Origin: a virus | Virus record (IMG/VR): IMGVR_UViG_3300025096_001891 | Span: 1 to 21,624 of that record | Direction: 5' to 3' (one strand) | DNA length: 21,624 bases | Part shown: piece after piece, positions 6,301 through 21,061 of the stretch | How positions within the stretch are numbered: the first letter of the stretch is position 1 | Layout: every line of letters starts with the position of its first letter | Position numbers and translations under genes: made by a program | The notes under the pieces: model-generated | The model's database searches: none | Told to the model about the DNA's origin: nothing | Seen by the model: only the letters and a program-made list of their open reading frames with translations

Positions 6301-6801
6301 AAGAAATGGGAGAGGGGTATGCCCATAGCGTTGAAGTCTCTTTCAAAAGCAGCGCGTCTTCACACGAGAGGCGAAGAGACATTCCGTGGGGGCGGACAAG
6401 TAGTTGAGTTTGATCCGCATGACAGTCAAGCACAAGCAGAGTTGATTGCTCAATCATTGGGATTCGCTCCAAGTAGACTTTCTACTACGTACGAGCTGCG
6501 CGGAATTAAAGAGGACTTCCGTAGGTATGTCCTGATGAGAAGAAGTCTCCTCCTCGAGAAGTACGCATATGCCCAAGGTGAGGGCCACCGGGAAGGCATA
6601 GCAGACGTACGGAAAGCAGTTAAACAATTTAATCAGAACGCACCTCCTGGCCTTCGGATAACTCCGAGGATACTAAAGGAGAGCTTGAAGCAGCGTCGTC
6701 GTCGGGCACTTCTACGGGAGCGTGGTCTGCCGAATGAGAAAGGGTTTCGTCGGGACTTTCTTGAGATTGAGGAGCTTTTTCCCGAGGCCCAACGTAGCTG
6801 A
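349..6801 (+). CDS. Giant large-polyvalent-type virion protein with metallopeptidase-like and membrane segments
   Basis: A 2150-residue protein, probably an internal virion/DNA-ejection protein of the phage 'large polyvalent protein' class. Seen in order: a charged N-terminus; three glycine/alanine-rich hydrophobic segments (about residues 126-146, 201-222 and 296-314); a long acidic, probably disordered linker (about 330-640); a zincin-like motif HETLAHHG (685-692, H685, E686 and H690 or H691); a domain with HVVEVQSD (1080-1087) followed by a YEKELPKIYKEFDG / SWWEI segment, both recurrent in phage polyvalent proteins; a helical region; then YLGFNAKSAAVNMTQVP (1639-1655) and a hydrophobic stretch (1810-1860) resembling the common C-terminal module (LPD38-like; name uncertain). 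The C-terminus is Arg-rich. The hydrophobic segments suggest insertion into the host envelope during ejection. Its 3' end overlaps the converging helicase gene by 173 nt. The large-polyvalent class is well supported; the enzymatic activity is inferred. Confidence 0.8.
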   Translation: MVDFNDALAAFDEDTEKAKQKHGFESALEGFDQAVAGQPRETDEPGDFIPNLKAGVEETIGLTRAAVGTGQELLGFENAATESFEAAGKRFDEAHRLTAGLVDNIDKIEDVGSFVDFMQGVAGRQLPIIASIVATGGVGGIIAGVGKKLAADKFKKELTEEALKKTITRGQTAGVFGGASTLETGGIAQEQHESIGEIRPGIAVAGGALAGSLEILPIFQLGRMLGVGPQLQSKLIDKIMGSPNILKRIAAGGTVISGLEAATEFGQEVIASAAREIVDENYDFLGAEGRKRLRDAAAVGAAAGLMFGGAVGAFSRPRSHRTEKEILEDFDAQVTEEVNKPSTTLPNEGLLQEETVAPVPDYSSIDLGERGDVVINKEIAFLTQQLGAPLQQIPDSRDQVEQTERTPIPVFTAVNESGLVSADAFSVQEQTFGLPIPHSPIARDKSLVPIVEDRIDEGKGLKVTTREPRVQVGTLDIGGKVRPITIPQHQTVSSRREQDAISFPDVNTETEEVVTHDESLQVTPEEIETSPLRPESVERLTKGEQKRLDKLLEKEIEEGLTDKEFEILDALRSKAEGEIVERRTATKKENVELRKGIFESRKVAPTAQVPGISVEQVKETVEAIALPLGPQISIVKSHEDIVHPDVKRAAQARGTRAVYYVDSQTMFLIADRLKSPEAVVQAYFHETLAHHGLRAVLLPKELNALLDQVAQSFDLSGLANLYGLDLSNPVHKRELAEEKIAHLAESNPRAPVLTRVVAALRRFLREFLPNLKLSDTELRVMLSDIRRYLSAPINTTNLGGKFRTENYLRRMVDLKEIPKYTTRVLDALPKKQWLNAGHVVQALKAAKAKKGEVEIFREVLALHHIGRRFQRETLIHEVMQRILPLNAKSWHAPELSNVGFQNIGREDQAILDNFDAELLALVQKDRKALADAHFRLGAWMYRDAHFRLDATKIRQPDKILKDLRARLNSGTDSFEEFFNDEIYQGLGDAGAKAGLLMDAVKQANSEAIATEYQLLVGQQGLDKTLDGVQASALVWEGPTQTQRPIDEVGRELSRASEHFKDSNNYLSHTRGFVDKEDVTHVVEVQSDVAQNRQFDTVDFPQRTTLLNQTVREYIRRNAIMFPGKPIRFPTGRTAAIVAGKYHKNALISFKPNVPPDVALNLNRWEGIFKMYEKELPKIYKEFDGKIVKDKFGFSWWEIPGDVAQAETPVKVFASKTEAHAANLEANLDMDLKLIKENLKKFTQVWRVKGAGGVLTPLQMARVFNVSPSKNYLEVVQRWWNTKTEIMELASDIAGRWSTSNTRSEALSKTIFEVSTTSDELARRLTPEEVARIMQKNKLDEAGQALFTEIDESFRTILDRLQPGLEYNAALESLGSQAAAVEFLQAWRTTDKDTRKQMLQAALADKGSEKFLLIPRLNKIEKDFSELKNRNYFPRQRFGQYTVTVKAQKAMKFAGRSYEAGDTVLFETHETRKAQLLRNEELHKLSQLGSAKITMSKLTDKEFQFLGLPPTLIDSFKNELGLTPQQQERMKEITIRLSPGRAFLKHLLNRKGVAGFSEDALRVYSSYMLSAANHIARVEHFIDMDAALKGFDQLRTRVDQEIGDSTSAAMLGDYFRDHYNYIMNPEDDWSKLRAMAFLWYLGFNAKSAAVNMTQVPMVLYPYLSSKFGDVKTTKEIANATIDAARVFGGKSPKISNALNDMIDRARKDGFLDESIATELAGFSDSNVLERMVPSTATGRLMSNTSYYGAWMFRNAEKYTRLVSFISATRLAEKSGITDPEEIYQVGKDAVQTAMFEYAKWNRPQFMRGKKSVIFLFWMWMQGASFLALGGAGGGTAIRFMLMLGLLAGLQGIPFAENILDILNKSTTKIKTLTGMKDPHTELRNDIRELMTGITDRPDLIMHGAGRYWGLGPLHAVEALGVPVPNVDITGSLTMGRFLPGVGEILSNERNPEAKFGRTVVDILGPVIGIPYNLWKVAESSDPDVWKKWERGMPIALKSLSKAARLHTRGEETFRGGGQVVEFDPHDSQAQAELIAQSLGFAPSRLSTTYELRGIKEDFRRYVLMRRSLLLEKYAYAQGEGHREGIADVRKAVKQFNQNAPPGLRITPRILKESLKQRRRRALLRERGLPNEKGFRRDFLEIEELFPEAQRS
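3139..3191 (+). repeat. Short in-frame direct repeat inside the giant gene
   Basis: The 17-nt sequence GACGCACACTTTCGTTT occurs at 3139-3155 and again at 3175-3191, exactly 36 nt apart. It keeps the reading frame and encodes two adjacent 12-residue units, DAHFRLGAWMYR and DAHFRLDATKIR. This looks like a partial tandem duplication within the coding sequence. Confidence 0.8.
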
Positions 6802-8339: not shown

Positions 8340-8563
8340 TGGGCGTTCTCCTCCTCAGGGTCATCATCGGGAGTGGCTATGATTCGTAGCTTGAAGTATA
8401 TGTCGTAGTTATACATACCCCCACAGCCTACACATTGGATTATGTGAACTCCGCCTATGTAAGTTTCCTCGCAGGACTTCTTTCCACATCCATTACAGAC
8501 GAATGTCTTGTGGTAGTCTTCTTTAGTTAGAGGCTTCTTTTCTTCTACGCTGCTATTTTCCAT
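8324..8563 (-). CDS. Small zinc-ribbon protein
   Basis: A 79-residue protein with paired cysteines, FVCNGCGKKSC (C23, C26, C31) and QCVGCGG (C44, C47), which should form a treble-clef or zinc-ribbon site. ATG 8563 is preferred because GAGGAG sits 6-7 nt upstream; an upstream in-frame start at 8587 has no such site and would extend further into the polymerase gene. The N-terminus is acidic/lysine-rich and the C-terminus acidic (DDDPEEE). It overlaps the 3' end of the polymerase C-terminal gene by 19 nt and the downstream DUF1937 gene by 16 nt, so it is translationally coupled to both. Function unknown; nucleic-acid binding or a replisome accessory role is possible. Confidence 0.7.
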   Translation of the reverse strand: MENSSVEEKKPLTKEDYHKTFVCNGCGKKSCEETYIGGVHIIQCVGCGGMYNYDIYFKLRIIATPDDDPEEENAQCSFT

Positions 8564-9288
8564 GTTGTCTCCTCGCAATGACCCCAAGACTTCTCGCTGA
8601 TGGAGATGCCGACAGGGATAGTTAGTAGATTATCGTACGGTATTTCAATGTGTAAACATTGGTGAAGATGTTCGAGCAGAGATTGAGTATAGTTTCTTTT
8701 CTTTATCTGATACACCAATGAGTCATGAACTTGTAAAAGAACTTCTACATGAGAGTAGAGTTCTCGGTCAATGTTTGCCCAGCCCTTGTCGATTACTAGA
8801 GCTACCGTTGACTGGGGAACCCAAGCCAAAGCCTCAGGAAGCAAACTGTCTGGTCTCTCAAAGTAGCGACGAGTGTAGCCAAACTTATTAGTTACTGATC
8901 GGGAAGCGTTAAGAGAATCTTGAGTTCTCTCGTGCCAGCGAGGTATAGCTGGATGAGCCGCGAACCATTTGTTGACGAATAGTTGGGCCATGGTTTTTGT
9001 AATGCCAAGGACCTTTGCTAGTCTTGGGACACTTGCTCCGTAGTTTGTTGCGTGGACTCCGGCCTTGGCTAGTTGCCGACCAGCCGGGCCAGTAAGACCC
9101 AGGGCTTCTGCATTTGTCGTATGTAAGTCAAGGGAAAGGTCTGTCCGAGCTGCTATGAAGAAGTCCATAAGAGCTTGGTCATCTGCTTCCCACGCAACAA
9201 CTTGTGCGTCAGCCTGAGCTAAGTCAGACTCGCATATGAGATACCCTGGGTCGGGGATAAGAACTTTACGGAGATTTGGAACTTTCAC
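8545..9288 (-). CDS. polA: Family A DNA polymerase, C-terminal piece (palm/fingers)
   Basis: A 247-residue protein containing the polymerase catalytic core. It begins at KVPNLRKVLIPDPGY, the block normally just before motif A. Motif A is SDLAQADAQVVAWEADD (catalytic D22). Motif B / O-helix is RQLAKAGVHATNYGA (R71, K75, H79, Y83, G84), and motif C is QVHDSLVY (D189). Aligned to E. coli Pol I, H79 matches Phe762, S190 matches Glu883 and D27 matches Glu710. The fragment lacks the exonuclease and thumb, which are in the gene at 9535-11244; both pieces lie in the same reading frame but an in-frame TGA and a further TAG separate them. The start is GTG 9288, with GGAG 7 nt upstream, so it can be translated on its own. 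It overlaps the 90-residue ORF by 23 nt. It is probably active only with the N-terminal piece. Confidence 0.88.
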   Translation of the reverse strand: MKVPNLRKVLIPDPGYLICESDLAQADAQVVAWEADDQALMDFFIAARTDLSLDLHTTNAEALGLTGPAGRQLAKAGVHATNYGASVPRLAKVLGITKTMAQLFVNKWFAAHPAIPRWHERTQDSLNASRSVTNKFGYTRRYFERPDSLLPEALAWVPQSTVALVIDKGWANIDRELYSHVEVLLQVHDSLVYQIKKRNYTQSLLEHLHQCLHIEIPYDNLLTIPVGISISEKSWGHCEETTWKIAA

Positions 9289-9538
9289 AGATAAGCTCCA
9301 GAGTTTCTTTGACTACGGTTAGGGACTTTTCAACCTGGTCGAAAGCCTGCATATGTAATTCTTGCAGATGTTCTATTCTTGAAAAGCGTTTATCAATCTC
9401 CTCGAGCATGGCTTCGGTACGTCTACGGACTCCCGATTCGCTATTGGCGTCGTCCATGTCAGCCATTATTTGCGCTACCCATCCTTCAGGCGGTGTAACA
9501 TCTCGGTATGTGTCAGGGTCATTGTCTTTGTTGCTCAT
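9266..9538 (-). CDS. Coiled-coil ORF lying between the two polymerase pieces
   Basis: A 90-residue protein of no recognised family. Residues 45-83 carry a continuous heptad pattern, with core positions L45, I48, F52, I55, Q59, H62, F66, V69, L73, V76, L80 and I83 (3-4 spacing throughout), predicting a long coiled coil. The first 40 residues are polar and Asp/Pro-rich. The ATG overlaps the TGA of the upstream polymerase piece (ATGA), with GGGAG 9 nt upstream, and its end overlaps the start of the downstream piece by 23 nt. It has no homing-endonuclease motif (LAGLIDADG, GIY-YIG, HNH) and no intein splice residues. The position suggests a protein made with and perhaps bridging the two polymerase pieces; that is inference. 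Confidence 0.75.
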   Translation of the reverse strand: MSNKDNDPDTYRDVTPPEGWVAQIMADMDDANSESGVRRRTEAMLEEIDKRFSRIEHLQELHMQAFDQVEKSLTVVKETLELICESSKSP

Positions 9539-11244
9539 GATTCTTTACTCCCACTGGTTAAGTTTTGCTGGTTGCCTCCATAGCCAAATACATCTCGGCT
9601 GGAGGATTTACGAAACGTCTCAGTTCCGCATATGTTAATAGAGCTACGCATCCGGTTGTCCCATTCCACAGGGGCGTTGAGGAAGTTTGACATAAGACTC
9701 TTAGCTGAGCGATAGTCTCGTAGTCTGTCTGTGACTGGCTTTATCAAAGGTTCTATTATACCTAATGCTTCAAGCGCATCGTCATTAGCTGTGCGAGTTT
9801 TCTTACCCTTACCACGTTGAGCGAATTGCTCAGGGAGCATAAGAACGTCGTAAAGAACCTCAGCGGTTTGGGTGGGGCTATCATACCACGGAGTCTTCTT
9901 TCGTCTATAGATATTCTCAGGGAGGATGTATTCAAAGAACGCAGTAGCATCGAACATATATTCCATCATGTCTGACTTGGCCTGGCGCTTAGCCTCGTTA
10001 TCCATGAGGGTTCCCCTAAGCTCAGCCCGCAGGACGGGGCGAATGAGAGACATCTGAAAGTCTACCTGCTCTTCGAGTTTATACATCTCGATAAGTTTTT
10101 GCAACACCTCGTCGGCTTCATAAGTAACTACGCAGTCTTTGCAGTTATATGTCCATAGTCGTTCTTCATCATGGAGCTTTGGGTCCCATTCCTTCCCCTC
10201 GTCTTTCCAGTACTGGTGGAACTCACAGTATACTGAGGACAGATAGTCGAGTCCTTTTTGAAGGCCGGGGAATAAAGTGTGTTGGTATATCATTGTGTCC
10301 CGCGCGGGAAGCGGGGCGAATCCCCACTCTCTAGACATGTACTGAATGTCATAGTCGAAGTTCTGTCCGATGAGAATAGTTTGTGGGTGGGTTAAGATAT
10401 CCTTTAACGACCAGACTATCTCAGACTCTTCGGTAGTAGACCAGTACCCCGACGGATTATCTGTCGACATAAAGGGAATGCATAGAGCACTACGAGCAGA
10501 GTTAGCAAGACCAAGACAAGCAATATGTCTGAGCCGGGTTTCAATATCGCAAGCTAGCTTTACATGGTAGCCTTCTGCAAATGCTTCTTGTATCGAATCA
10601 AAATACAACATCACATCTGTGAAGCTAGGTCTAATGTGGAAGTCATACTTAGGATAGTCCCAGGTCTTAGTGTTCTTCGCTTCGGCTACGCGACGAAGGT
10701 CATAGATACCTATATGTCGGTTTGCCCACTGACGAAGAATGGCGGCAGGATGGACGCATGGGACTACCTTGCGAGAACCAAACTCGGGGAGGGTTTCTAA
10801 CTGACTCCCTCTCCAGGTCATGATTCCAGTCGGGGCTGGTTTGTTTGTCTTACCAGTTAAACCTGTCAGTGCCCATAAAGACGTGGCACCGTAGGCGATG
10901 ATTACATTCGGGTCGACAGCCTCGATTTCTTTTTGCAACGCAGGGAGACCCTGGAGTATAGGCTTGTCTGGGTACTTACCGTGCCACTCTATTCCGCCAC
11001 GCTTCTTCGCTTCTGTCTTAGTCATGAAGAAGTTTTCAATCTTATTATATGGTGGGCGGAGGCGAGAGACGTTTGTTACGAAACATTCGTCGCGAGATAT
11101 CCCTGCCTCTGCTAACATGTTGTTCATCTCGTATCCGGATGAGCCGACGAACGGACGACCCTGCTCCTCCTCAGTCTTGCCGGGGGCTTCGCCAACTATC
11201 ATTATGTCAGCGGTGGGGTTGCCGTATCCGTGGACTTCAGGCAT
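9535..11244 (-). CDS. polA: Family 4 UDG-like domain + 3'-5' exonuclease + N-terminal DNA polymerase piece
   Basis: A 569-residue protein. Residues 1-190 resemble family 4 uracil-DNA glycosylases: GYGNPTADIMIVGEAPG (6-22), GRPFVGSSG (29-37), TNVSRLRPPYNK, and CVHPAAILRQ (163-172). The N-terminal CxxC of the Fe-S enzymes is absent. A proofreading exonuclease follows: ACDIET (D233, E235), GQNFDYD (N295, D299) and YNCKD (Y366, D370). The thumb region then ends at ETFRKSSS...GYGGNQQNLTSGSKES, where normal polymerases continue to motif A. ATG 11244 is chosen because it opens exactly at the UDG block and has GGGAGAG upstream; the longer GTG 11322 frame runs through the tiny ORF at 11237-11326. It should proofread and provide the thumb for the palm piece at 8545-9288. 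Whether the UDG domain excises, binds or ignores uracil cannot be read from sequence. Confidence 0.88.
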   Translation of the reverse strand: MPEVHGYGNPTADIMIVGEAPGKTEEEQGRPFVGSSGYEMNNMLAEAGISRDECFVTNVSRLRPPYNKIENFFMTKTEAKKRGGIEWHGKYPDKPILQGLPALQKEIEAVDPNVIIAYGATSLWALTGLTGKTNKPAPTGIMTWRGSQLETLPEFGSRKVVPCVHPAAILRQWANRHIGIYDLRRVAEAKNTKTWDYPKYDFHIRPSFTDVMLYFDSIQEAFAEGYHVKLACDIETRLRHIACLGLANSARSALCIPFMSTDNPSGYWSTTEESEIVWSLKDILTHPQTILIGQNFDYDIQYMSREWGFAPLPARDTMIYQHTLFPGLQKGLDYLSSVYCEFHQYWKDEGKEWDPKLHDEERLWTYNCKDCVVTYEADEVLQKLIEMYKLEEQVDFQMSLIRPVLRAELRGTLMDNEAKRQAKSDMMEYMFDATAFFEYILPENIYRRKKTPWYDSPTQTAEVLYDVLMLPEQFAQRGKGKKTRTANDDALEALGIIEPLIKPVTDRLRDYRSAKSLMSNFLNAPVEWDNRMRSSINICGTETFRKSSSRDVFGYGGNQQNLTSGSKES

Positions 11245-11326
11245 TCTTCTCTCCCGCTTCTTGTGATGCGCCTTTGTACAGTTCAGCCTCACCACCACAA
11301 AAAGGACACGGTAATAAATCACTCAT
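11237..11326 (-). CDS. 29-residue CPFCGG (Lar-like half zinc-ribbon) peptide
   Basis: A very short ORF, starting MSDLLPCPFCGGEAELY and ending EAGEKNA. The CPFCGGEA motif is the signature first half of Lar-type (restriction alleviation) zinc ribbons, but the second CxxC is missing, so zinc binding would need dimerisation or another partner. An excellent SD (GAGGAGGTG) lies just before the ATG and overlaps the stop of nrdJ. Its end overlaps the polymerase ATG by 8 nt. This supports real translation, or at least a leader that couples nrdJ to the polymerase. Function unknown. Confidence 0.6.
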   Translation of the reverse strand: MSDLLPCPFCGGEAELYKGASQEAGEKNA

Positions 11327-11338
11327 CCCTTCACCTCC

Positions 11339-13279
11339 TCACAATACCTCACACTTATCACCAGTACACGCCATCTCGTTCATCATGTCTGTCGTGTCTT
11401 CTGTTTCAAATATTGATAACCTATCCCAATGAATCATTGGAAAGTTTTCGGACATCTCATTATACGCAGCTTCGTCAATCTCTTCATATGGAGCCTGGGT
11501 ATATACGGTGTCATCTTCATTATATGGCAGAAATGATATCCCCGAGAGTAAGTCAAAATGCTTATAGACCCAAGCTCCAACTTCCATCCACTCATGGTCA
11601 CGTATGTATATTGTCTGGGAAGGTTTATGCTCACACCAGTGGATTTGGTATGTGAGCCAAAGATTAAGCTGATCGAGGGCAGTGACTTGCGAGCGAGTAA
11701 CAGCTCCCTTAGGTGCCATTTGTGGAAACGAAAACACTGCGACGTGTTGCGGACTTGTATATAGGTCTTCATGAGGAACCTCGCATTCTTTGAGAAGGGA
11801 AAAGACTGGGTCTTTCTTGTCCAATTGTATACGACGAATGTAGTACTTCGCATGTCGTGCATGGATACCGCTGGCTGTGTCACAGAGTTGACTCACCGTT
11901 CCCTCTGGTTTAACACAGGTAATGGCGGTGGCTTGGTTAATCCCTAGCTTCTGCGACCACTCAAGGTTGGTGTCGATAGCTACTTGTTTGAGTTCACGAA
12001 GGACATCGGGTAACGTATGTGCCCCGTTGTCTGTAGACATGAACCAGTCTGGGGTATGCTTCAGTCTCCCATTCAGCACGGGGTGATCCATTATTCCTGT
12101 AAGGCTGACCCCAAGCAGACGTTCCTCCTCGCAGTTCTTTTTCCAGGTGTCGGAGAGGAAATGGAAATCTGTAAGAGTTGACTGAAACGTTCCAATAATC
12201 GTAGCAGTGCGGACTTTTGCTTTAAGTTCATCGAGTGTATTATCAGCACGTACGATTGTCGTTGTAAGGTTACAGAATTCTCTATCTCGAAGTATAATCT
12301 CACTGCAAGGATTGGTGCCAAAGTGGTGGCTTGAATCTCTACGTCCGTTACGAGCCGCTTGTTTTTGTGCTGCAGCCACATTGTAAATACCTCTCTCACC
12401 CGACTTGGATTTGAGGAGCGAAGTCCATTCTTGCATAAAGATTTCCATATCGGGCCGTTCAGTATATGCGGCAGAGTTGTTAGCCAAACTACGCCACGGT
12501 GATTGGTCTGGTCTGTACCACTCTCCGACTTTTGCATTTCTCATCCTCTCGTCTGATGGGTTTGATAGGGATATAAGCGCTGAGCGACGGACGCCTCCGG
12601 AGACAACAACCTGTCCAGTCTTGCATACAAGATCGTGGCACTCGAGGGAAGTTAGCCTCCGCCCCTCAGCTTGTTTAAAGATTCTTACCGCGTATCGGAA
12701 GAGTTCTTCCAAAGGTCCGGGGCCAGATGCCCGTCCGCCGAAGGTACGCAGTCTTGCACCAGCGGGGCGCACGGCGGATATGTCCCACTTAGGTATCTGT
12801 CCGACAGAGAGTAAACTTAGTATCTCCCGAAAGGCCATGGCCCAACCAAGCTTACTGTCTGCTACCTTCACCGTAGTGTTGGACTCGTAGAAGTGGCTCG
12901 GTAACTCAGGGAGGTAGTTTACATACTGACGCTCGACAGAGAAGCCGACGCCTGTGCCACACATAAGTGTGTACATGACCTCAGCAAATTTAAATATCTG
13001 GTCGATAGCTAAGAAGGCACAGTTGTATCCAGCTACATGGTCTTTCTCAAGTGCTGGCCCAGCCGTCATCAGTTGTCGCATAGACGGCATGACCTTGACT
13101 GTATGGATTTCTGTGCAGAAGTTACTGATAGCTTGGTCGTGTTCAGGATACTTCTTCATCCAGAAGTCAGCGTACCTGTCTATCGTTTCTCCCCAGGTCT
13201 CCCGTCTCTGTTCGTCGTCATTCCATCGAGCATATCGTGATATATGAATAAAGTGTGGCAGTTCATTCTTTGCTTTCAT
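11339..13279 (-). CDS. nrdJ: Class II (adenosylcobalamin-dependent) ribonucleotide reductase
   Basis: A 646-residue single-chain class II reductase, converting ribonucleotides to deoxyribonucleotides with a B12 cofactor. The redox pair is YNCAF (C87) and FCNLT (C336), the thiyl site is TNPCSEI (C325 with E327), and the C-terminal redox shuttle is CTGDKC (C638, C643). The motifs and single-chain form resemble the monomeric Lactobacillus leichmannii triphosphate reductase (739 residues); this copy is shorter. ATG 13279 overlaps the end of the ParB-methyltransferase gene by 17 nt, with GGAGG rather far upstream (about 12 nt). All catalytic cysteines are present. It does not need oxygen or a separate radical-generating subunit but depends on host cobalamin. 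It supplies dNTPs for the polymerase encoded directly downstream. Confidence 0.92.
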   Translation of the reverse strand: MKAKNELPHFIHISRYARWNDDEQRRETWGETIDRYADFWMKKYPEHDQAISNFCTEIHTVKVMPSMRQLMTAGPALEKDHVAGYNCAFLAIDQIFKFAEVMYTLMCGTGVGFSVERQYVNYLPELPSHFYESNTTVKVADSKLGWAMAFREILSLLSVGQIPKWDISAVRPAGARLRTFGGRASGPGPLEELFRYAVRIFKQAEGRRLTSLECHDLVCKTGQVVVSGGVRRSALISLSNPSDERMRNAKVGEWYRPDQSPWRSLANNSAAYTERPDMEIFMQEWTSLLKSKSGERGIYNVAAAQKQAARNGRRDSSHHFGTNPCSEIILRDREFCNLTTTIVRADNTLDELKAKVRTATIIGTFQSTLTDFHFLSDTWKKNCEEERLLGVSLTGIMDHPVLNGRLKHTPDWFMSTDNGAHTLPDVLRELKQVAIDTNLEWSQKLGINQATAITCVKPEGTVSQLCDTASGIHARHAKYYIRRIQLDKKDPVFSLLKECEVPHEDLYTSPQHVAVFSFPQMAPKGAVTRSQVTALDQLNLWLTYQIHWCEHKPSQTIYIRDHEWMEVGAWVYKHFDLLSGISFLPYNEDDTVYTQAPYEEIDEAAYNEMSENFPMIHWDRLSIFETEDTTDMMNEMACTGDKCEVL

Positions 13280-14609
13280 TATTGGTTAGAGCCTCCAGTG
13301 TGGCAACAGCCATGTGATAGGTTGATTCTTCTTTTTCTATTCCCGTTGCTGTACACTTGAGTTCAGTGGCCGCAGGAAAGATATTACCCTCACCGCAGTA
13401 CGGGTCAAGGATTGTATTGGTTGGCAGAACACTACAGCTCAGAAGTTCGATGAGGAGTTCTGGCGGCTTTCCAGCTGCGTGGTTACCGCTTGTAGGATTT
13501 TGGCATCGGAAGACTTCAGTATGGGGCTTAGCCATTGTTCGTCTGCCCTTATTAATAAATAAGATTGCTTCGTATGTTTGGCGAAAACCGTACTCCATGT
13601 CTCCGAAGGAACCAGTATTACCTTTATCCCAGATAAGAGGTCGGGGCCAGCATTGAAAACTGGATAGTTCGAAAGCCACGAAGAGTTCGCTCCATCTGCG
13701 AATATCACAAAAGATATATCCGTGGGCTTGTGGTTTCGTAAGTCTATCACAAAGTCCGGGTAGCTCTGCAAGCATTTGTTGGAAGGCTTCTTCTGAATCA
13801 TCATAGTTATGTTTCCTCGTCCCAGCGTTCTTTTCTTTGTGCATCTCACGACCGTACGGTGGGTCAGCAAGGATGACATCGAACGGGGCACCGGAGACAG
13901 CTTCAAGGTTATAGCTATCAGCATGGAATAACACATGCGGTGCTTCCGTTAGGTCGAATTGTTCTGCGAGTTCTTTCCGTACCTTCGCGCGTTTGGTGTC
14001 CTTAATCGCTTTGAGTGCCTCGGACTTTGTCTTGGCCGCGGCGACCTCAGGGTCATCAAGATGCTCGGCAATGACAAGCAGGTCAGACAGGTCTTTCACC
14101 TTACTGTCCCCGGCGTCGTCCCCGTGTATCTCTTGCGCTGTAGCAAGGAGAGTCTGGCCTACAGTGTCACCTGTTCGTTGACTCTCACCCTTGTCATACT
14201 CTCCCTTTTGTTTTATCCGTAGCTCATGTAGCTGTGCATAGGCCGCAGCTTTCTCCTGAACAGTGAAGTCCTCGCGAGTTACGTTCTCCTCAATCTCAAT
14301 CTCAAGTCTTGTAACCTCGTCGAGTTCATCTACAAAGACAGTCGGTATTGTACCAAGCGGAACCTCCTGTCCGTCATGACGAAAGGGTGTCTTCTTCTCA
14401 ATAAGTTCCTTCACCACACGCAGCCGCCTCTCTCCGGCGATTAGGGTGACAGTCCCCGTTCCGCCATCATCGAGAGGCTCGACTACGATAGGATGAAACA
14501 ACCCATTAGACACTATGCTCTTGCTTAACTCCTCCATTCGCCTCTTGTTAAACGTCTTGCGCTGACGCGATTCAGATACTTCAATGTTCTCTAGTTCTGT
14601 TGTTTTCAT
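13263..14609 (-). CDS. ParB-like domain fused to a DNA methyltransferase
   Basis: A 448-residue fusion. The N-terminal ParB/Srx-type domain shows the conserved LIAGERRLRVV box (57-66) and ENVTREDFT (108-116), followed by a charged helical linker. The C-terminal half is an amino-methyltransferase with catalytic motif LADPPYGREM (DPPY at 249-252), a downstream HAAGKPPELL (378-387), and the AdoMet-binding motif LDPYCGEGN (401-409). Motif IV before motif I is the beta-class order of N6-adenine or N4-cytosine methyltransferases. The recognition sequence cannot be predicted. No restriction partner lies nearby, so it is probably an orphan enzyme used for protection from host restriction or for marking DNA. 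The start is ATG 14609, 3 nt after the small membrane ORF. It ends within the start of nrdJ. Confidence 0.87.
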   Translation of the reverse strand: MKTTELENIEVSESRQRKTFNKRRMEELSKSIVSNGLFHPIVVEPLDDGGTGTVTLIAGERRLRVVKELIEKKTPFRHDGQEVPLGTIPTVFVDELDEVTRLEIEIEENVTREDFTVQEKAAAYAQLHELRIKQKGEYDKGESQRTGDTVGQTLLATAQEIHGDDAGDSKVKDLSDLLVIAEHLDDPEVAAAKTKSEALKAIKDTKRAKVRKELAEQFDLTEAPHVLFHADSYNLEAVSGAPFDVILADPPYGREMHKEKNAGTRKHNYDDSEEAFQQMLAELPGLCDRLTKPQAHGYIFCDIRRWSELFVAFELSSFQCWPRPLIWDKGNTGSFGDMEYGFRQTYEAILFINKGRRTMAKPHTEVFRCQNPTSGNHAAGKPPELLIELLSCSVLPTNTILDPYCGEGNIFPAATELKCTATGIEKEESTYHMAVATLEALTNNESKE

Positions 14610-14838: not shown

Positions 14839-15297
14839 CTATACTAATGCTGCGACCTTGTTGATCTCAGCCTGCGGAGCACCAGTGTTTTTGTTGGTCT
14901 TGTGAACAACAAATATCCTGGCAACCTTTCCTTCAAGCATGGAAAATCTGAAGGCCAGGTCAGGGTCGGCGAGACCGGTTGCTTCGCGAAGCCGGTTGAG
15001 TGGTACGTTCTTACCCTTACCGTTATCGAGGCGACCATCGTCGGTGAAGTTCAGGAACATGCTGTCGCGGAGAGTTACTTCCTCGCGTTCCATTTCTTCC
15101 CGGACACCTGCGTCGTCAACAATCCAGGTTATGTCAAGGGCAATCCACTGCTCGCCGTTCTTGTCAGAGACGCCGTCGCGGAGTGCAACTTTCTTTACAA
15201 TGCCATTGTAACCGTCGGTACTGGCAGGGACCGGAACATACTCAGTTGATCCCATACCCTGTACTTCTTGATTGGCAAATTGTTCAAGGTTAATCAT
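14839..15297 (-). CDS. Putative single-stranded DNA-binding protein (OB-fold type)
   Basis: A 152-residue protein matching the layout of phage single-stranded DNA-binding or DUF669-like proteins: GYNGIVKKVALRDG (29-42), EQWIALDITWIVDD, then MFLNFTDDGRLDNGKGKN, LNRLREATGL, and a final strand-rich KVARIFVVHKTNKNTG. It should coat single-stranded DNA during replication and recombination. The start is ATG 15297 with AGGAGA 9 nt upstream. It lacks the very acidic C-terminal tail typical of E. coli SSB. Its position after the Sak4-like ATPase fits the frequent pairing of such ATPases with an SSB. Family assignment is by pattern and neighbourhood, so the SSB role is likely rather than certain. Confidence 0.55.
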   Translation of the reverse strand: MINLEQFANQEVQGMGSTEYVPVPASTDGYNGIVKKVALRDGVSDKNGEQWIALDITWIVDDAGVREEMEREEVTLRDSMFLNFTDDGRLDNGKGKNVPLNRLREATGLADPDLAFRFSMLEGKVARIFVVHKTNKNTGAPQAEINKVAALV

Positions 15298-15334
15298 GAT
15301 ACTTTCTCCTATTGGAAGTTTAGTTTAGTGTTAA

Positions 15335-15381
15335 CGGCTTTTGCCGATTTGAGTGGGAAGGTTAGACCTACCTGCTCAAAT
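15335..15381 (-). promoter_or_regulatory. Two adjacent hairpins in the leader of the SSB-like gene
   Basis: In the 83-nt gap before the SSB-like gene, CGGC/GCCG (15335-15338 with 15343-15346, TTTT loop) adjoins a 7-bp stem (ATTTGAG 15347-15353 with CTCAAAT 15375-15381). The large loop of the second holds an inner AGGT/ACCT pair (15359-15362 with 15366-15369). This could terminate the upstream gene or control SSB-like translation. There is no strong U run. Confidence 0.35.
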
Positions 15382-15668
15382 TATTTGCTACCGAGAAAAG
15401 AACCCTGCCTAGTTTCTGTAGGTCTGTCAGAGCTAGGCTCTTTTGCTTTCTCTTTAGCCTCGGGGACTGAAGCAACCAGGTCTCCCTCTCGGTAGGTGAT
15501 GACTAAGCGAGTGGACTCTGTGCCAGTACCCAGCGCGCGGCGGGTCTTGTTCAGGGTTCCTTCGATAGCCTGTGTAATTTGCTCCCGCAGTTCTTCGTCG
15601 TCACAGGAAATATCTATGACGGCTGTGCAGCGGATTGGGGCTGGAGCGTTGTTTGATTCGTTGGACAT
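15381..15668 (-). CDS. Small hypothetical protein downstream of the Sak4-like ATPase
   Basis: A 95-residue protein that I do not recognise. It has a compact N-terminal part (PIRCTAVIDISCDDEELREQI, then an RLVITYREGD strand-like block) and a charged, probably disordered C-terminus (KEKAKEPSSDRPTETRQGS). ATG 15668 is preferred over 15692 because AGGAGG lies 6 nt upstream. The start lies 55 nt inside the 3' end of the Sak4-like gene, a longer overlap than usual here, but the SD is strong. It ends at the hairpin cluster before the SSB-like gene. A role in recombination or replication is suggested only by position. Confidence 0.65.
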   Translation of the reverse strand: MSNESNNAPAPIRCTAVIDISCDDEELREQITQAIEGTLNKTRRALGTGTESTRLVITYREGDLVASVPEAKEKAKEPSSDRPTETRQGSFLGSK

Positions 15669-16552
15669 ATAATGCCTCCTCGCGATTGCCATTTTTGGAT
15701 GAGTGGATTGAAACTAGCAGGTAGTCCTTTAGACCACGCAACATTGCGGGCCTTGAGGTCTGTCCCTGGTTCCGTCGTACTCCATGACCATTCAGTGCCA
15801 GTACGTTTGGCCTGGATGACATCGGTAAAGTTGAACGGAAGTTTGGGAGCTAGCTTCTTACCTAAGGTAAGTGCGTAAATGTTAGAGCCACCGGACACCT
15901 CGTCTACCTCGCGGTCAAGATGGGCAAGGAGAATGAAGTGACACTTGGTTCCATTGGTTAAGGTTTGAATCAGACCCTCGATGTTTCCCATGGCAGTTCC
16001 CCACTCGCCTTGATGTGGAGAAGGTTTGCCACCTACGGTCAGTTGCATCGACATTGTTGATAGGCCCGACAGTGAGTCCACGACAAATGCGCGATCGGTT
16101 CCCCAGGTTGCGACATCTCCGAAGTTCTCTCCACACTCATCACATACAAACTTGTTCATACATTGGAGAGCGTCAACGAACTGATTGTACTTTGACTTGT
16201 TCGGGTCGTCGTATTTCTTCTGTGCTTCAAAGGACAAGGTGTTTATAATCTTAGCCTTGTCAATGAGGACAGACCACGGAACGTTGGCGGGTGGAGAGTA
16301 GCACCAGTGGTAATCGCCGTGGTTCATGTGCTCGGCGGCTACATCCATGCCGGGTTCCGTGAAGAGAATAAAAGGTGTGACTCCGGCTTTTGGCAGTGTG
16401 CATAGTGAGTGCGTCTTACCTGCCCCAGAGCCACCAATTAGCAAGACGTTTGCACCGGGGAGTGGGGAACTCTCCGTATGCTCAGGAGGGATTTCCGAAA
16501 CGACTTGCTCCACTTTCGTGGGTTCAGAGTTTGATAGGGCAACAGTGCTCAT
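15614..16552 (-). CDS. Sak4-like RecA-fold ATPase (single-strand annealing/recombination)
   Basis: A 312-residue protein of the phage Sak4 / AAA_24 type, a RecA-core ATPase that acts in single-strand annealing with an SSB. Walker A is GGSGAGKT (40-47), Walker B is AFVVDSLSGL (155-164), and a conserved FILLAHLDRE strand follows. A cysteine cluster at C131, C137 and C140 (CDECGENF) sits between Walker A and B and looks like a metal-binding insertion. The start is ATG 16552, overlapping the TGA of the upstream zinc-ribbon gene (ATGA), with GGAGGT about 10 nt upstream. Neighbours, an Fe-S nuclease upstream and an SSB-like protein downstream, make a coherent recombination set. Confidence 0.82.
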   Translation of the reverse strand: MSTVALSNSEPTKVEQVVSEIPPEHTESSPLPGANVLLIGGSGAGKTHSLCTLPKAGVTPFILFTEPGMDVAAEHMNHGDYHWCYSPPANVPWSVLIDKAKIINTLSFEAQKKYDDPNKSKYNQFVDALQCMNKFVCDECGENFGDVATWGTDRAFVVDSLSGLSTMSMQLTVGGKPSPHQGEWGTAMGNIEGLIQTLTNGTKCHFILLAHLDREVDEVSGGSNIYALTLGKKLAPKLPFNFTDVIQAKRTGTEWSWSTTEPGTDLKARNVAWSKGLPASFNPLIQKWQSRGGIICPTNQTTLQPQSAAQPS

Positions 16553-16905
16553 AAGATTTTATACCTCCTACAGTGGTTATATCGGACAAGGAATTCATAT
16601 TTGAGGACTTCGAGGGGATACTTATCCCAGTCGAAAAATCTATCCCATTGGTGAACAACCGAGCCAGGCATTTGGAAATGAAAGCCCGCGCGGCTCGTGC
16701 AGTTTCTGCATCTACCGTGGGAGATTGTATGTAACGGTCGGTTATAATCAGCGAGACATTGAGCGTAGATTCTTCCACAGTCACGGCAGAAGAAATGTTC
16801 GGACACCACGTGAAAACGGGGGTCGAGCCACGGCGGTGTGATGACAGCAGTACCGAAGTAGGAATCCTCAATGAACCATTGGTAGGATATTTGATTCGAA
16901 GACAC
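16549..16905 (-). CDS. Zinc-ribbon hypothetical protein between nuclease and Sak4-like ATPase
   Basis: A 118-residue protein with two CxxC knuckles, FFCRDCG (C40, C43) and GRCRNC (C66, C69), plus C50. It is rich in aromatic and histidine residues (for example FHF, HQWDRFFDWDKYP). The start is GTG 16905, just after the upstream TAA, with an AAGGAAG SD; the end overlaps the Sak4-like ATG (ATGA). It is therefore coupled on both sides to recombination genes. I do not recognise the family. A DNA-binding accessory of the nuclease or ATPase is a guess from context. Confidence 0.7.
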   Translation of the reverse strand: MSSNQISYQWFIEDSYFGTAVITPPWLDPRFHVVSEHFFCRDCGRIYAQCLADYNRPLHTISHGRCRNCTSRAGFHFQMPGSVVHQWDRFFDWDKYPLEVLKYEFLVRYNHCRRYKIL

Positions 16906-16906
16906 A

Positions 16907-18019
16907 TTAATCTTCCTTCTTCAGTGGATTCCACTGGCGGTGGTCGTAGTAGTTGTCCAGCCACACGTCAGGGTTGGGTGTCTCGCAAAGGATGGTGAAG
17001 GCACAGCCTCCGAAGTCATTGCAAGCATTGTCCTCTACTGTGTCCCATGCGGAATAGTCGAGGGGGTTGGACTTTCTGTCTTCTTTAAACTGTTGATAGT
17101 CTTCAACCATGCGGCGTAGCGTTGTCTGGACATGCTTAAGCCAGCGTTCGATTTTCCAATCCTCTCGGTACGTGATTGCCTGTGCGTGTTTAATCTGCGT
17201 CTTCTGGATCGCGGTGCCGCGAATAATGGCACCTGCAACTGGATATCCGAACACCTGCGCTGCCCAGCAATACCCAGTAAACTGCCCCCTGAGCTTCCAG
17301 TGGTCTGACCAGTGGGGTCCGATGGCTCCAGTTGTCTTATCATCAACAACGAACAGAACACCGTTTTGTTCTCCGATAAGGTCAGAACGTCCAACCCAAT
17401 TAATAGGGTCTCCAGTTTCAGGGTGAAGGATGCCAGGTATCGGTATGGAGAAGGAGAATTCGATACACGGATCTCCGTTAACGAAATGTGGGACAAGGTA
17501 GTCGGTCTCAGGAGGGTATTCTTTAAGATACGACAAGTATGCCGCAACAGTTCTGTCCCATGTTTTATAGTCCCTGGGGCCTGTGGGTTCGAAATCTGAA
17601 TAAGCTCTTGTAAGGGCAAGGAACCCTTCCTCAGTAGCCTCTTGCACAGAGACACCATCCTTGTAGAACCTACGACGGAATATCTCAAGACCTTTTGCAT
17701 ATGCGCCTCCGGCTGTTAAGTGAATAGAACGATTGTTCGGATGCCGGTTACGAAAGGAACCCCAGAAGAAGCGGCGTGGACAGGATATGTACTGGGCTAA
17801 CATTGTACTATCCATGAAGGAAGGAAAAACAAAGTCTGGGACTTCCATGTCACCAGCCTCTGCTCCTGCCGCCACAACAGGATTAGTCGGGAAGAAATGG
17901 TAAGTGTTATCTTGTAGGGCGTAGCTGCCAAGGATTTCCCAAGGCTTCACTTCTTTGATTGCTGTATCAGCCAAGTGTTTGTCTACGGGGTCTGAGTCCC
18001 AGTTGATTTCTTTTTCCAT
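16907..18019 (-). CDS. Cas4/RecB-like PD-(D/E)XK nuclease with Fe-S cluster cysteines
   Basis: A 370-residue exonuclease-type protein. Core motifs: GRSDLIGE (D213), VVDDKTTGAI (D226-D-K228) and the helix QFTGY (Q246, Y250) typical of the Cas4/RecB/AddB branch. Four cysteines are placed as in Fe-S nucleases: C80 in SCPRRFFW and C333, C339 and C345 in ACNDFGGCAFTILC. All active-site residues are present. The family degrades or resects DNA ends, often with a helicase; a UvrD-type helicase lies upstream in the same cluster. ATG 18019 overlaps the upstream stop (TAATG). No cas1 or CRISPR array is present, so a CRISPR adaptation role is not supported; replication-linked recombination is more likely. 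Confidence 0.85.
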   Translation of the reverse strand: MEKEINWDSDPVDKHLADTAIKEVKPWEILGSYALQDNTYHFFPTNPVVAAGAEAGDMEVPDFVFPSFMDSTMLAQYISCPRRFFWGSFRNRHPNNRSIHLTAGGAYAKGLEIFRRRFYKDGVSVQEATEEGFLALTRAYSDFEPTGPRDYKTWDRTVAAYLSYLKEYPPETDYLVPHFVNGDPCIEFSFSIPIPGILHPETGDPINWVGRSDLIGEQNGVLFVVDDKTTGAIGPHWSDHWKLRGQFTGYCWAAQVFGYPVAGAIIRGTAIQKTQIKHAQAITYREDWKIERWLKHVQTTLRRMVEDYQQFKEDRKSNPLDYSAWDTVEDNACNDFGGCAFTILCETPNPDVWLDNYYDHRQWNPLKKED

Positions 18020-18303
18020 TAGTCTTCCCTTGTATCTTGAAGTCGATGGGAGTAAACCGTCGACCGGCGTTTAAAGTTTAGTACCGTATCACCGCTTGGG
18101 TCGTCTGACATATTAACCTCTATCTTGTCAGCGGTGTTGGCCATGTCACGAAGTACCTGACGGAATTTGTAGAACTCAGCCCTAGTGTTCTTCGCTTCAC
18201 GTTTAGTAGTGAAGAAGCTAGTAACGCCAAGGCCGCGTTCTATTTTATCCAGTAGCTCGAATAATTCTGGAGCATAGTTGTCAAGTTTTTTAGCGCTGGG
18301 CAT
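18019..18303 (-). CDS. Hypothetical protein, helical N-terminus
   Basis: A 94-residue protein, beginning MPSAKKLDNYAPELFELLDK. It is charged, mostly helical in appearance, with a central SFFTTKREAKNTRAEFYKFR segment and a short strand-like end. No known family. It is coupled on both sides by TAATG overlaps, upstream to the 66-residue gene and downstream to the Fe-S nuclease. It lacks cysteines and membrane segments. Confidence 0.65.
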   Translation of the reverse strand: MPSAKKLDNYAPELFELLDKIERGLGVTSFFTTKREAKNTRAEFYKFRQVLRDMANTADKIEVNMSDDPSGDTVLNFKRRSTVYSHRLQDTRED

Positions 18304-18503
18304 TACAGCAAATCGCTAAGGTCAACAGTTTTCTTTGTGGACTTAGCCTTTGCTGTTTTGGCATCAGCGGCATCGGAGATAGCCTGCAGCCTGTTCGGTG
18401 CAAGGTGCTCGATAGCTCCCCGTACTTCGTCGCGTGAAAGGTCTTCGCTCTCCAGAACGCGGCGGCGCAGGTCGTGAACTGCATCTGGTGTCATGGTTTC
18501 CAA
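18303..18503 (-). CDS. Small hypothetical protein, first gene after an internal promoter
   Basis: A 66-residue, Ala/Lys/Asp-rich helical protein with internal METMTPDAVHDLRRRV and a C-terminal KSTKKTVDLSDLL tail. Start choice: TTG 18503 lies 7 nt after a perfect GGAGGT, whereas ATG 18494 is 16 nt away and an upstream TTG at 18539 has no SD. It is the first gene downstream of the sigma70-like promoter at 18552-18580 and is coupled to the next gene by TAATG. No known family. Confidence 0.65.
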   Translation of the reverse strand: METMTPDAVHDLRRRVLESEDLSRDEVRGAIEHLAPNRLQAISDAADAKTAKAKSTKKTVDLSDLL

Positions 18504-18551
18504 TTTTATTACCTCCGATTCTTTTCTCGGGATTGACAATCTAAGGCGGGT

Positions 18552-18580
18552 ATTCTACCTTATGTTTTACGAGTGGTCAA
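18552..18580 (-). promoter_or_regulatory. Strong sigma70-like promoter
   Basis: On the - strand, TTGACC (18580-18575) and TAGAAT (18557-18552) are separated by exactly 17 nt. Each box matches 5 of 6 consensus bases. It lies in the only sizeable gap of this stretch, just at the end of the gene at 18577-18936, and would initiate about 40 nt before the TTG start at 18503. It probably drives the nuclease, Sak4-like and SSB-like genes and possibly those beyond. Confidence 0.65.
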
Positions 18581-18936
18581 GCGTACACTCGCCGTAGTCG
18601 ATTGAATGACTCCGATACTCTCTTGCGACCTGTCTGTTCAAGAAAGGTCAGGAGTGCAGTGACAGCCTTGGACTGCGATGCCTCAACATCTGTGCGTTCC
18701 AAGTCTTCGCACTGTTTGAGAGTCTCGATGAGGTTATCCTCAAGGTCTTTCTCCCGTAGCCATTTGCGATAAAGCATGGATGTTAGCTCACTCCTTGCGC
18801 CAAGCGGCGGACCTTTGTCCTCGCCTAGAAGGTTCTGCTTAGCAAGTCTAGCTGTAACTGGGTCAGCTACTGACTGAGGGATTCGTAGTTTCCACTCAAG
18901 GCGTTTGTCTGTCTCTTTGCGTCTTCCTCTGGGCAT
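18577..18936 (-). CDS. Putative small DNA-binding protein (ribbon-helix-helix-like)
   Basis: A 119-residue basic protein. The N-terminus PRGRRKETDKRLEWKLRIP followed by VADPVTARLAKQ and later GARSELTSMLYRKWLREK resembles the strand-helix-helix order of ribbon-helix-helix regulators, with a longer loop than usual. The C-terminal half is a charged helical region. ATG 18936 has AGGAGA about 9 nt upstream; the gene begins 3 nt after the previous one ends. Its stop overlaps the -35 box of the downstream promoter. If it is a regulator, that promoter would be an obvious target. Family assignment is tentative. Confidence 0.6.
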   Translation of the reverse strand: MPRGRRKETDKRLEWKLRIPQSVADPVTARLAKQNLLGEDKGPPLGARSELTSMLYRKWLREKDLEDNLIETLKQCEDLERTDVEASQSKAVTALLTFLEQTGRKRVSESFNRLRRVYA

Positions 18937-19287: not shown

Positions 19288-20817
19288 TTAGTCCTCCGGT
19301 AGATATACGAAATACAGTTCTTCCAAAGACCTGGTGATTGCTACATACAACAGGTTGTCTTCCTGTTGAAGAGCAGAGTTGGTCTTTGCAAATCGGGAAG
19401 GGATAAGGTCAGGCCGCCAGATGAATACGCGGGGGGCTTCTAGTCCCTTGGCTTTGTGAATGGTGCAGAGTGTTGGGCCTCGGCCGGAACGGAATATCTT
19501 CTTGATAAGGATTAGCATATCCGTTACAGTTGCTACATCCTCGCCTTGTGCTAGCACACGGATGGTGTCGTACCTATCCGAGATGGTTTGCATATAGGCT
19601 TCACGGCCTTCAAGCTCTGCCTTGGTCAGCTCAGCTTGGAACCAGTTATTCAACCCTTCGATGAACTTATCAATGTCATCGTTGCACTTGTACTTCCCGT
19701 CGATGAGATTGATGAAGGTTTGTATGGTCTTTTCCAGGTTTGACTTGACCTGCACCGGAAGACGTTCCCGAACAAACTGCATGGCTAGGGAAAATATCGG
19801 TGCGTTGTTGCGACAGACCACCATGTCTGTGTCAAGGAAGGATGTAACTGGCGGTGGCTCGGTGAGGTCTTCACATATGCCTAGCTCTGCGTCTTCCTTG
19901 GGCTGTATTTCTTCCACGTACATCTGAGCTTGTTCAACCACAGCGATTGGACAACGGTAGGACACGGAGAGTGGTAGCTCCTCTGCGTTGAACATGTGCT
20001 TCATGTTGTCCATGCTACGAGAGTCCGCGCCTCGGAAGGCATAGATAGCCTGTGACCTGTCACCCACAGCGACTACCCGTCCGTTAGGGCCAGTGAGTCG
20101 GTAGACCATCTCATGCTGGATGGGGTTCAAGTCCTGTGCCTCGTCAGCGAGAACGAAGTCATACTGCGGGAACTCGCATTTGAGGTAGAAGGGAAGGAAT
20201 AGCATGTCGTCAAAGTCAATGGTGCGGGTATCGGACAGGCAGATTCTATACAACCTGCTAGCTATTGTAGCTACCTGATGTGGCTGGTACTGCCCGATGC
20301 CTTCATCTTGAAGTCCTTCAACCGCCTCAACAAAATACTGGGTAAGGTCAGCTGGCTGTTCGTTGTGACAACCGAGCATGTTCGCCTTTGCTGTAGATAC
20401 CAGCTTGATAAGAGCTTGCGCAAGGTCGTCGACAATATCTTGTGGGAAGTTGTCTTTGAGAGCCTTCCGGGTCTTCTGGCCAACTACGTTCCAGTCAGTG
20501 TGTCCATTATTGCGTAGTATGAGACAGCCCAGGGAATGAAAGGTCTTGGCCTGTACATAAGACGGGACTTGGTTACGGAGGTTGTCCGCAATAGCCTTGT
20601 TGAATGCAAGGAGAAGAACCTTTTTATCGTACGGAATGTACTCAAGGCTCTTCAGTATTGTGGTGGTCTTGCCACTACCTGCCACGGCTTGCACGATGAT
20701 ATTTCCAGTGCCGTATTCGACAACATGGAAAATTGCTTTTTGCATTGGAGACCAGATACGCGCATCGATAGGTGCAGCGTGTTCGGCATCCATTAGGTCA
20801 GTGAGATCAATTGCCAT
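19288..20817 (-). CDS. UvrD/Rep-type superfamily 1 DNA helicase
   Basis: A 509-residue ATP-dependent DNA helicase with all main SF1A motifs: Q-motif WSPMQKAI, Walker A AVAGSGKT (44-51), motif II LADEAQDLNPIQ (DEAQ at 225-228), motif III VGDRSQAIYAFRG (251-263), SYRCP (motif IV), TIHKAKGLE (motif V, about 452-460) and LLYVAITRS (motif VI, about 489-497). It is shorter than E. coli UvrD or Rep (about 670-720 residues), with reduced accessory subdomains and no nuclease domain. ATG 20817 is chosen over the upstream start at 20847 because AGGAG precedes it at good spacing. It probably unwinds DNA during replication or repair, perhaps feeding ends to the Fe-S nuclease. Confidence 0.93.
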   Translation of the reverse strand: MAIDLTDLMDAEHAAPIDARIWSPMQKAIFHVVEYGTGNIIVQAVAGSGKTTTILKSLEYIPYDKKVLLLAFNKAIADNLRNQVPSYVQAKTFHSLGCLILRNNGHTDWNVVGQKTRKALKDNFPQDIVDDLAQALIKLVSTAKANMLGCHNEQPADLTQYFVEAVEGLQDEGIGQYQPHQVATIASRLYRICLSDTRTIDFDDMLFLPFYLKCEFPQYDFVLADEAQDLNPIQHEMVYRLTGPNGRVVAVGDRSQAIYAFRGADSRSMDNMKHMFNAEELPLSVSYRCPIAVVEQAQMYVEEIQPKEDAELGICEDLTEPPPVTSFLDTDMVVCRNNAPIFSLAMQFVRERLPVQVKSNLEKTIQTFINLIDGKYKCNDDIDKFIEGLNNWFQAELTKAELEGREAYMQTISDRYDTIRVLAQGEDVATVTDMLILIKKIFRSGRGPTLCTIHKAKGLEAPRVFIWRPDLIPSRFAKTNSALQQEDNLLYVAITRSLEELYFVYLPED

Positions 20818-21061
20818 TGTTGCTCTCCTCAGTTGTCTGTCTAACATGGAGAGTTATGATGGGGTCATCCAGGTTAGGTTTAATGTGAGGCCCTTTCTCA
20901 ATGTACGACATAAAAGATAGTTTATCCGTAATCGTGCTGATTGCTGGAAGATTGCTATCTTTCACCTGTGACTGAAAATAGTTTATTAGCTTGATAATGT
21001 CATTGAGACTCAAGTCTGTTTGACTATCAACTGTCGTTACGGTTTCGTATTTCGTTTGCAT
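20807..21061 (-). CDS. Small hypothetical protein before the helicase
   Basis: An 84-residue protein with no recognised family. It has a helical stretch SLNDIIKLINYFQSQVKD and a strand-like end DDPIITLHVRQ. It is coupled upstream by TAATG and overlaps the helicase start by 11 nt. There are no cysteines and no membrane segment. Confidence 0.62.
   Translation of the reverse strand: MQTKYETVTTVDSQTDLSLNDIIKLINYFQSQVKDSNLPAISTITDKLSFMSYIEKGPHIKPNLDDPIITLHVRQTTEESNNGN

Follow-up and report, generated by a model that had tools for sequence, protein, structure and literature searches.

Conserved gene order and residues in a phage early operon encoding a Cas4-like nuclease, a zinc-ribbon protein, a Sak4-like ATPase and a tailless SSB-like protein

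Sak4 alone is a weak annealase that is thought to need partners, and its proven partner is a single-stranded DNA-binding protein (SSB) with a C-terminal tail: in phage HK620, Sak4 and the adjacent DUF669 SSB form a tested annealing pair, and the last six residues of this SSB are required for recruitment of Sak4 (PMC5928155). Sak4 genes located upstream of SSB or DUF669 genes are common in Firmicutes phages (PMC8093625). Here, we analyze an early operon on the minus strand of a 21,624-base virus record (IMGVR_UViG_3300025096_001891, all of which we refer to as the window) that, in transcription order, comprises genes for a UvrD-type helicase, four small proteins, a nuclease, a zinc-ribbon protein, a Sak4-like ATPase, a small open reading frame (ORF) and an SSB-like protein. 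The SSB-like gene is followed by a ParB-methyltransferase fusion, ribonucleotide reductase, a split family-A polymerase and primase. The four genes at the center of this analysis are:

16907..18019, minus strand: Cas4/AddB-like PD-(D/E)XK nuclease with a predicted iron-sulfur (Fe-S) cluster, 370 aa (PF12705, conserved residues)
16549..16905, minus strand: zinc-ribbon protein of an undescribed family, 118 aa, GTG start (slot kept between nuclease and ATPase)
15614..16552, minus strand: Sak4-like RecA-type ATPase, 312 aa, Walker A G40-T47, Walker B D159 (phrog_124, AAA_24)
14839..15297, minus strand: SSB-like protein with a modeled oligonucleotide/oligosaccharide-binding (OB) fold, DUF669-related, lacking a C-terminal tail, 152 aa (model, Foldseek)

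An earlier note on this DNA had described these genes, the small ORF between the ATPase and SSB-like genes and the UvrD-type helicase upstream in the window as one set, and all of them were found on the minus strand in the order given there. The same note considered the genes to be coupled by overlaps, which is accurate at two of the four junctions and nearly so at a third: the nuclease and zinc-ribbon genes are separated by 1 nt, the zinc-ribbon and ATPase genes overlap by 4 nt, and the ATPase gene and the small ORF overlap by 55 nt if the start is the ATG at 15668, which has AGGAGG upstream, or by 79 nt from the first ATG of this ORF. It does not apply to the SSB-like gene, which lies 83 nt beyond the small ORF.

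To collect relatives, we scanned IMG/VR using the nuclease, the ATPase and the SSB-like protein and performed one scan of bacterial genome contigs, resulting in 206 sequences including the window. Each IMG/VR scan contributed at most 80 loci (of 292 nuclease and 306 SSB relatives), and the counts given here describe this best-scoring part. Merging near-identical loci by shared 31-mers reduced the 206 sequences to 146 distinct loci. Profile matches were accepted at E<1e-4 in a first count and at 1e-3 in a second, larger set. Close relatives of both the nuclease and the ATPase occur in three of 50,697 phage records (Microcystis phage Mel-JY34, "Bacteriophage sp." MW202489 and Vibrio phage VS-ABTNL-3), i.e., the clade is nearly absent from isolate collections; Desulfofustis phage LS06-2018-MD01 is a farther relative, and a search of the phage records for relatives at the DNA level found none. 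In three loci (L203, L204 and L205) the nuclease-ATPase-SSB operon lacks a zinc ribbon and lies on contigs binned as Nitrospinota, Dokdonella and Saccharibacteria genomes, which could be a hint to hosts or a binning error.

Across this collection the order of the central genes is conserved. The zinc-ribbon gene lies between the nuclease and ATPase genes in 121 of the 136 distinct loci holding both (91 of 99 in the first set alone), and 112 of the 113 loci that extend 1.5 kb or more beyond the ATPase gene have an SSB-like gene downstream of it. Among the 30 SSB-sampled loci with 3.5 kb upstream, which are independent of the nuclease and ATPase queries, all encode the ATPase and 26 the nuclease and the zinc ribbon. 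Intergenic gaps range from overlaps to more than 2 kb, and small genes therefore come and go around a fixed frame of which the zinc ribbon is a part.

The window nuclease matches PF12705 (PDDEXK_1) with an E value of 3.4e-10 (40.7 bits, cut-off 22), and phrog_1218, an exonuclease family, was matched by 41 of 43 sampled members; a PDB sequence search with the nuclease profile returned nothing meaningful. The earlier note had called this protein an Fe-S nuclease, and in agreement with that C80, C333, C339 and C345 are invariant in all 130 aligned homologs, as are the catalytic residues D213, K228, Q246 and Y250, with D226 of the D226-x-K228 motif present in 129. One of the four cysteines (C80) precedes the nuclease core and three follow it, with a CX5CX5C spacing in 137 of 137 sequences. 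In AddB, the last three cysteines are spaced CX2CX5C. AddB proper was therefore rejected as the identity of this nuclease, which is a Cas4-like relative with a predicted Fe-S cluster and a predicted nuclease activity. In Caulobacter phage Kuura, the nuclease (035, L207:2218-3369) carries an inserted cysteine-rich stretch of the CxxCxGxG type, a hint that zinc modules accompany this nuclease, and a 57-aa extremely acidic protein (033, L207:3791-3964) is encoded between its nuclease and ATPase.

The ATPase of the window matches the Sak4-like phrog_124 (E=1.8e-16) and AAA_24 (PF13479; E=7.4e-11, 42.7 bits, cut-off 27). Walker A residues G43, G45, K46 and T47 are each present in at least 140 of 141 relatives, and K46 and D159 in all 141. 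An "extra CxxC insertion" reported for this protein in the earlier note turned out to be neither an insertion nor a family trait: the CxxC in the window is real, the loop that carries it is present in all relatives with the consensus DDRTG, and only 6 of the 141 have CxxC at that place. We consider a function of the ATPase as a DNA loader or a comparable motor, instead of as an annealase, to be very unlikely. Profile matches to a DnaC-like loader PHROG (E 0.2) and to IstB (E 0.04) are weak, and two public records label the ATPase a "putative DNA helicase"; yet phrog_124 was matched by all 40 sampled members, with a best E value of 1.4e-23. A PDB sequence search with the ATPase profile gave P-loop matches only.

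An OB fold is suggested for the SSB-like protein by its structural model, which has a predicted local distance difference test (pLDDT) score of 95.1. The best Foldseek match of the model is PrgE of plasmid pCF10 (8s4s, E=2.1e-4), an OB-fold protein that binds single-stranded DNA, with a VIA Z of 11.1 over 112 residues at 3.4 Å; the next unrelated match has 6.6. At the sequence level, DUF669 was matched weakly by 16 of 85 members (best E=0.0032), the window protein has no DUF669 match above the curated Pfam cut-off, and one member matches the SSB family phrog_378; a PDB sequence search with the SSB profile gave nothing meaningful. In 131 of 133 members the protein ends 3-5 residues after the last strand and thus has no C-terminal tail. 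Acidic ends were found only in L006 and L125.

The family matches and conserved residues support the proposal of the earlier note that this set resembles a single-strand annealing pathway with an AddB/Cas4-type nuclease, and we consider it probable that it is a phage replication-recombination operon for resection, coating of single-stranded DNA and ATP-dependent annealing, with the zinc ribbon as an accessory. The Fe-S nuclease would resect phage DNA ends, the OB-fold protein would coat the single strands thus exposed, and complementary strands would be paired by the Sak4-like ATPase in an ATP-dependent manner, so that replication and repair could proceed by recombination without the RecA/RecBCD of the host. 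The zinc ribbon would be a fast-evolving structural accessory of the nuclease/ATPase pair, helpful rather than essential, that most likely bridges both proteins or contacts DNA at the resected end. The sequences show the gene order, how well it is kept, the protein families and the invariant catalytic residues and cysteines; the biochemical activities, the polarity of resection, the independence from host proteins and the bridging are what we infer for this set. Alternatively, the set could serve mainly in fork repair or in the breakdown of host DNA for nucleotides. The operon runs on into the ParB-methyltransferase, ribonucleotide reductase, PolA and primase genes, that is, into a replication and nucleotide region, as such a role would have it, but a Sak4-type ATPase followed by an SSB is the arrangement of the tested HK620 annealing pair (PMC5928155), and we regard this alternative as unlikely.

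The zinc-ribbon family is diverse, with a median pairwise identity of 23% among 92 aligned members, and its CxxC...Cxx[C/H] pattern is kept in 120 of 123 members. In two relatives (L095 and L059), cysteines have apparently been lost and a "VWAR" stretch retained, which suggests that the metal is structural rather than catalytic. The model of the window protein (pLDDT 89.6) has five strands and a C-terminal helix. A fold search against the PDB gave no match at E<=0.001, though the fold may be a known one; a viral library gave one match (A0A2D1AFP5, 153 aa), which, judged by its length, is probably the Vibrio phage's own copy. Neither Pfam nor PHROGs matched the window zinc ribbon, other members had scattered weak zinc-finger matches, and a PDB sequence search with the family profile returned only generic fingers and chance matches. 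The ratio of nonsynonymous to synonymous substitution rates (dN/dS) was estimated from 15 hand-picked close pairs, of which 11-13 per gene passed the filter. Its median is 0.18 for the zinc ribbon (12 pairs), indicating purifying selection, with medians of 0.09 for the nuclease, 0.10 for the ATPase, 0.13 for the SSB and 0.10 for the small upstream gene g78 described below.

Several observations weigh against a part for the zinc ribbon in the proposed pathway or against the pathway itself. In 15 of the 136 loci the slot holds no zinc ribbon, which corresponds to 11 changes on a nuclease tree that was built by a quick method and has long branches, at least 5 of them forced by well-supported branches. 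Three loci without it (L151, L165 and L168) have nucleases nearly identical to those of L179 and L176, which have it, and searches of these three records (43.0, 40.4 and 22.8 kb) did not reveal one at another place; the zinc ribbon is therefore not essential there. In the first 126 sequences, we found no ORF that fuses the zinc ribbon to the nuclease or the ATPase, and a literature search gave no biochemistry for any member of the clade. What is left of the last zinc-ribbon codons can still be seen in L151 and L165, in front of the next gene. The slot is filled by unrelated small genes, namely, one for a 63-aa hydrophobic protein in L151 and L165 and other ORFs in L054, L106 and L064.

Such losses would fit a zinc ribbon that is no recombination partner but acts as an early regulator or against the host and is carried along at a stable position in the early operon, a reading that we hold possible, if doubtful. 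Besides the repeated loss and the unrelated small genes in the gap, it draws on the position of the zinc ribbon downstream of the SSB gene in L016, on its higher dN/dS (0.18 vs. 0.09-0.13 for the neighbors) and on the lack of a PDB structure with a matching fold. Against it stands that the zinc ribbon has held its place in 121 of 136 loci, also in deep branches, in an operon whose other small genes vary freely. The earlier note had named two coupled small proteins as candidate partners, to be doubted if they varied freely in relatives while nuclease and ATPase stayed together. For the zinc ribbon the candidacy stands despite the repeated losses, and for the small ORF between the ATPase and SSB-like genes (15381-15668) it falls: a phmmer search found no homolog of this orphan in any of the 145 other distinct loci (0/145). 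The zinc ribbon is thus an old operon member, useful but dispensable, a real conserved partner gene that was lost repeatedly and once recently. L179 and L176 with the gene and L151 and L165 without it are natural pairs for comparison, and Vibrio phage VS-ABTNL-3 offers one cultured host system for testing. Neither that phage nor Mel-JY34 was the subject of any paper found in our literature search, and no open-access paper combining "Sak4" with "zinc ribbon" was found.

Outside the range covered by the earlier note, a further small gene is kept more regularly than the zinc ribbon:

18303..18539, minus strand: g78, small adaptor-like protein, start uncertain (TTG 18539 or a later start) (kept upstream of nuclease)

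Where 600 bp or more of sequence precede the nuclease gene, it is located upstream of that gene in 117 of 120 distinct loci (84 of 89 in the first count). Because the core keeps the zinc ribbon and g78 through deep divergence, these two genes are named candidates for the missing partners of Sak4. In the g78 proteins, a helical part at the N-terminus, in which R and E are conserved, is followed by a K-rich linker and an acidic-hydrophobic C-terminal tail (VDLSDLL in the window) with the pattern D/N-x-D-D/A-L-L-x-E-L, or DxDxLLxEL. The same peptide ends an early phage protein family of ~185 aa and the nucleases of one clade. The pattern, which was written after the tails had been seen, occurs in 84 of 120 g78 proteins, where shuffled ends would give about 1, in 28 of 38 of the ~185-aa proteins (0.3 expected) and in 6 of 137 nucleases (0.2-0.5 expected), five of these six being near-copies from one close clade. 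Among the other proteins, the motif was present in none of 123 zinc ribbons, none of 133 SSBs and 0-1 of 142 ATPases. An earlier, different pattern matched 72 of 120 g78 proteins, 7 of 137 nucleases and 39 of 7369 other ORFs, and many of these 39 belong to the ~185-aa family. This family (L052:950-1507 and 41 further ORFs) also has a conserved "HGxxQKxGD" stretch, and two of the three members tried had no match in PHROGs. In 22 phages, g78 and ~185-aa tails agree at 5.4 of 11 positions within a phage and at 4.8 between phages (5000 label permutations, p 0.0004, with relatedness ignored).

In HK620 the SSB tail recruits Sak4, and a tail supplied by another protein is therefore a new and testable reading. 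In its full form, the docking tail of the SSB would have moved into separate proteins, so that g78, the ~185-aa protein and one nuclease lineage share a docking peptide that brings resection, coating and annealing together at a single hub, and the zinc ribbon would serve as a dispensable bridge. The hub would probably be the Sak4 ATPase or the SSB. We offer this as speculation with a low chance of being correct; in L006 and L125 a tailed SSB occurs together with a g78 protein, which counts against a simple swap of tails. If true, this reading would reveal how the parts of a phage recombination machine are connected by a single short peptide.

The remaining genes around the core differ in how regularly they are kept:

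19288..20847, minus strand: UvrD-type superfamily 1 helicase, outside the conserved core (PF00580, E=2.3e-29)
18577..18936, minus strand: g119, small upstream gene with a near-invariant G46 in a GAxS stretch (found in 46 of the 50 distinct loci that include 4.5 kb or more upstream)
18019..18303, minus strand: small ORF between g78 and the nuclease gene, barely conserved (homolog search)
15381..15668, minus strand: nonconserved small orphan ORF that overlaps the ATPase gene (phmmer, window's own copies only)
13263..14609, minus strand: ParB-like and DNA methyltransferase fusion, conserved downstream neighbor (phrog_67 and ParB-like PHROGs)

The helicase, placed upstream by the earlier note, is present in the window and is not a fixed neighbor; of the 41 loci that reach 5.5 kb or more upstream, only 3 keep it, and it was rejected as a core member. 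The ORF at 18019-18303 has strong matches only in the window and in the near-identical record 3300006750_002304, with L009 and L183 at E=0.008. Where 4.5 kb or more of downstream sequence is available, 73 of 75 distinct loci carry the ParB-methyltransferase fusion there. Farther downstream, the family-A DNA polymerase is split on the minus strand over 8545-9288, 9266-9538 and 9535-11322, two polymerase ORFs with a 90-aa ORF between them; VS-ABTNL-3 has a similar three-ORF arrangement, and Mel-JY34 and MW202489 have one long gene. An intron as the cause of the split was rejected, as there is no Rfam match in the window. On the plus strand, 349-6801 encodes a protein of 2150 aa that matches PHROGs of DarB-like antirestriction proteins, and related ones, in its C-terminal part.

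Among the described systems, HK620 is similar in having a Sak4-type ATPase encoded beside a DUF669-type SSB gene. It differs in that it hijacks RecBCD (Abc2) and has no nuclease of its own, whereas the operon described here encodes one, in that its SSB carries the six-residue tail that nearly all SSBs of the present set lack, and in that the available text names no zinc ribbon beside the Sak4-SSB pair (PMC5928155). In the phages PA73/KL1, an exonuclease is likewise encoded near a Sak4-like recombinase; that exonuclease is described as lambda Red-alpha-like, and a zinc ribbon is not mentioned in the part of the article used (PMC3483164). The Cas4-like pfam12705 nucleases of phages share the PF12705 fold, the four Fe-S cysteines and the phage-borne location, whereas in the clade described here the last three cysteines have X5/X5 spacing and the nuclease is set with Sak4, SSB and a zinc ribbon (PMC5704561). 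A similar arrangement is that of Bacillus phage BSP7, whose genes 040-043 encode a helicase, a Cas4-like nuclease, a P-loop ATPase and an SSB-like protein in the same order as the window. Our profiles matched its nuclease (E=3e-21), ATPase (9e-8) and SSB-like protein (7e-3), and the window helicase profile matched its helicase only at E=0.005. Neither a zinc ribbon nor a g78-type gene was found within the 6.5 kb examined; the BSP7 nuclease has CX3CX5C spacing, and its SSB has a long acidic tail of its own. In Caulobacter phage Kuura, the SSB-like gene 031 encodes a tailless protein, and gene 036, upstream of the nuclease gene, ends in a K-rich linker and NIDDLFSE. Both of these Kuura genes were read by eye, and the profiles did not call them. 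Because BSP7 has the same order without a zinc ribbon, the combination of nuclease, Sak4 and SSB is less novel than it seemed. This core is of a known kind, and what is new is the conserved zinc-ribbon family and the tailed adaptor around a tailless SSB.

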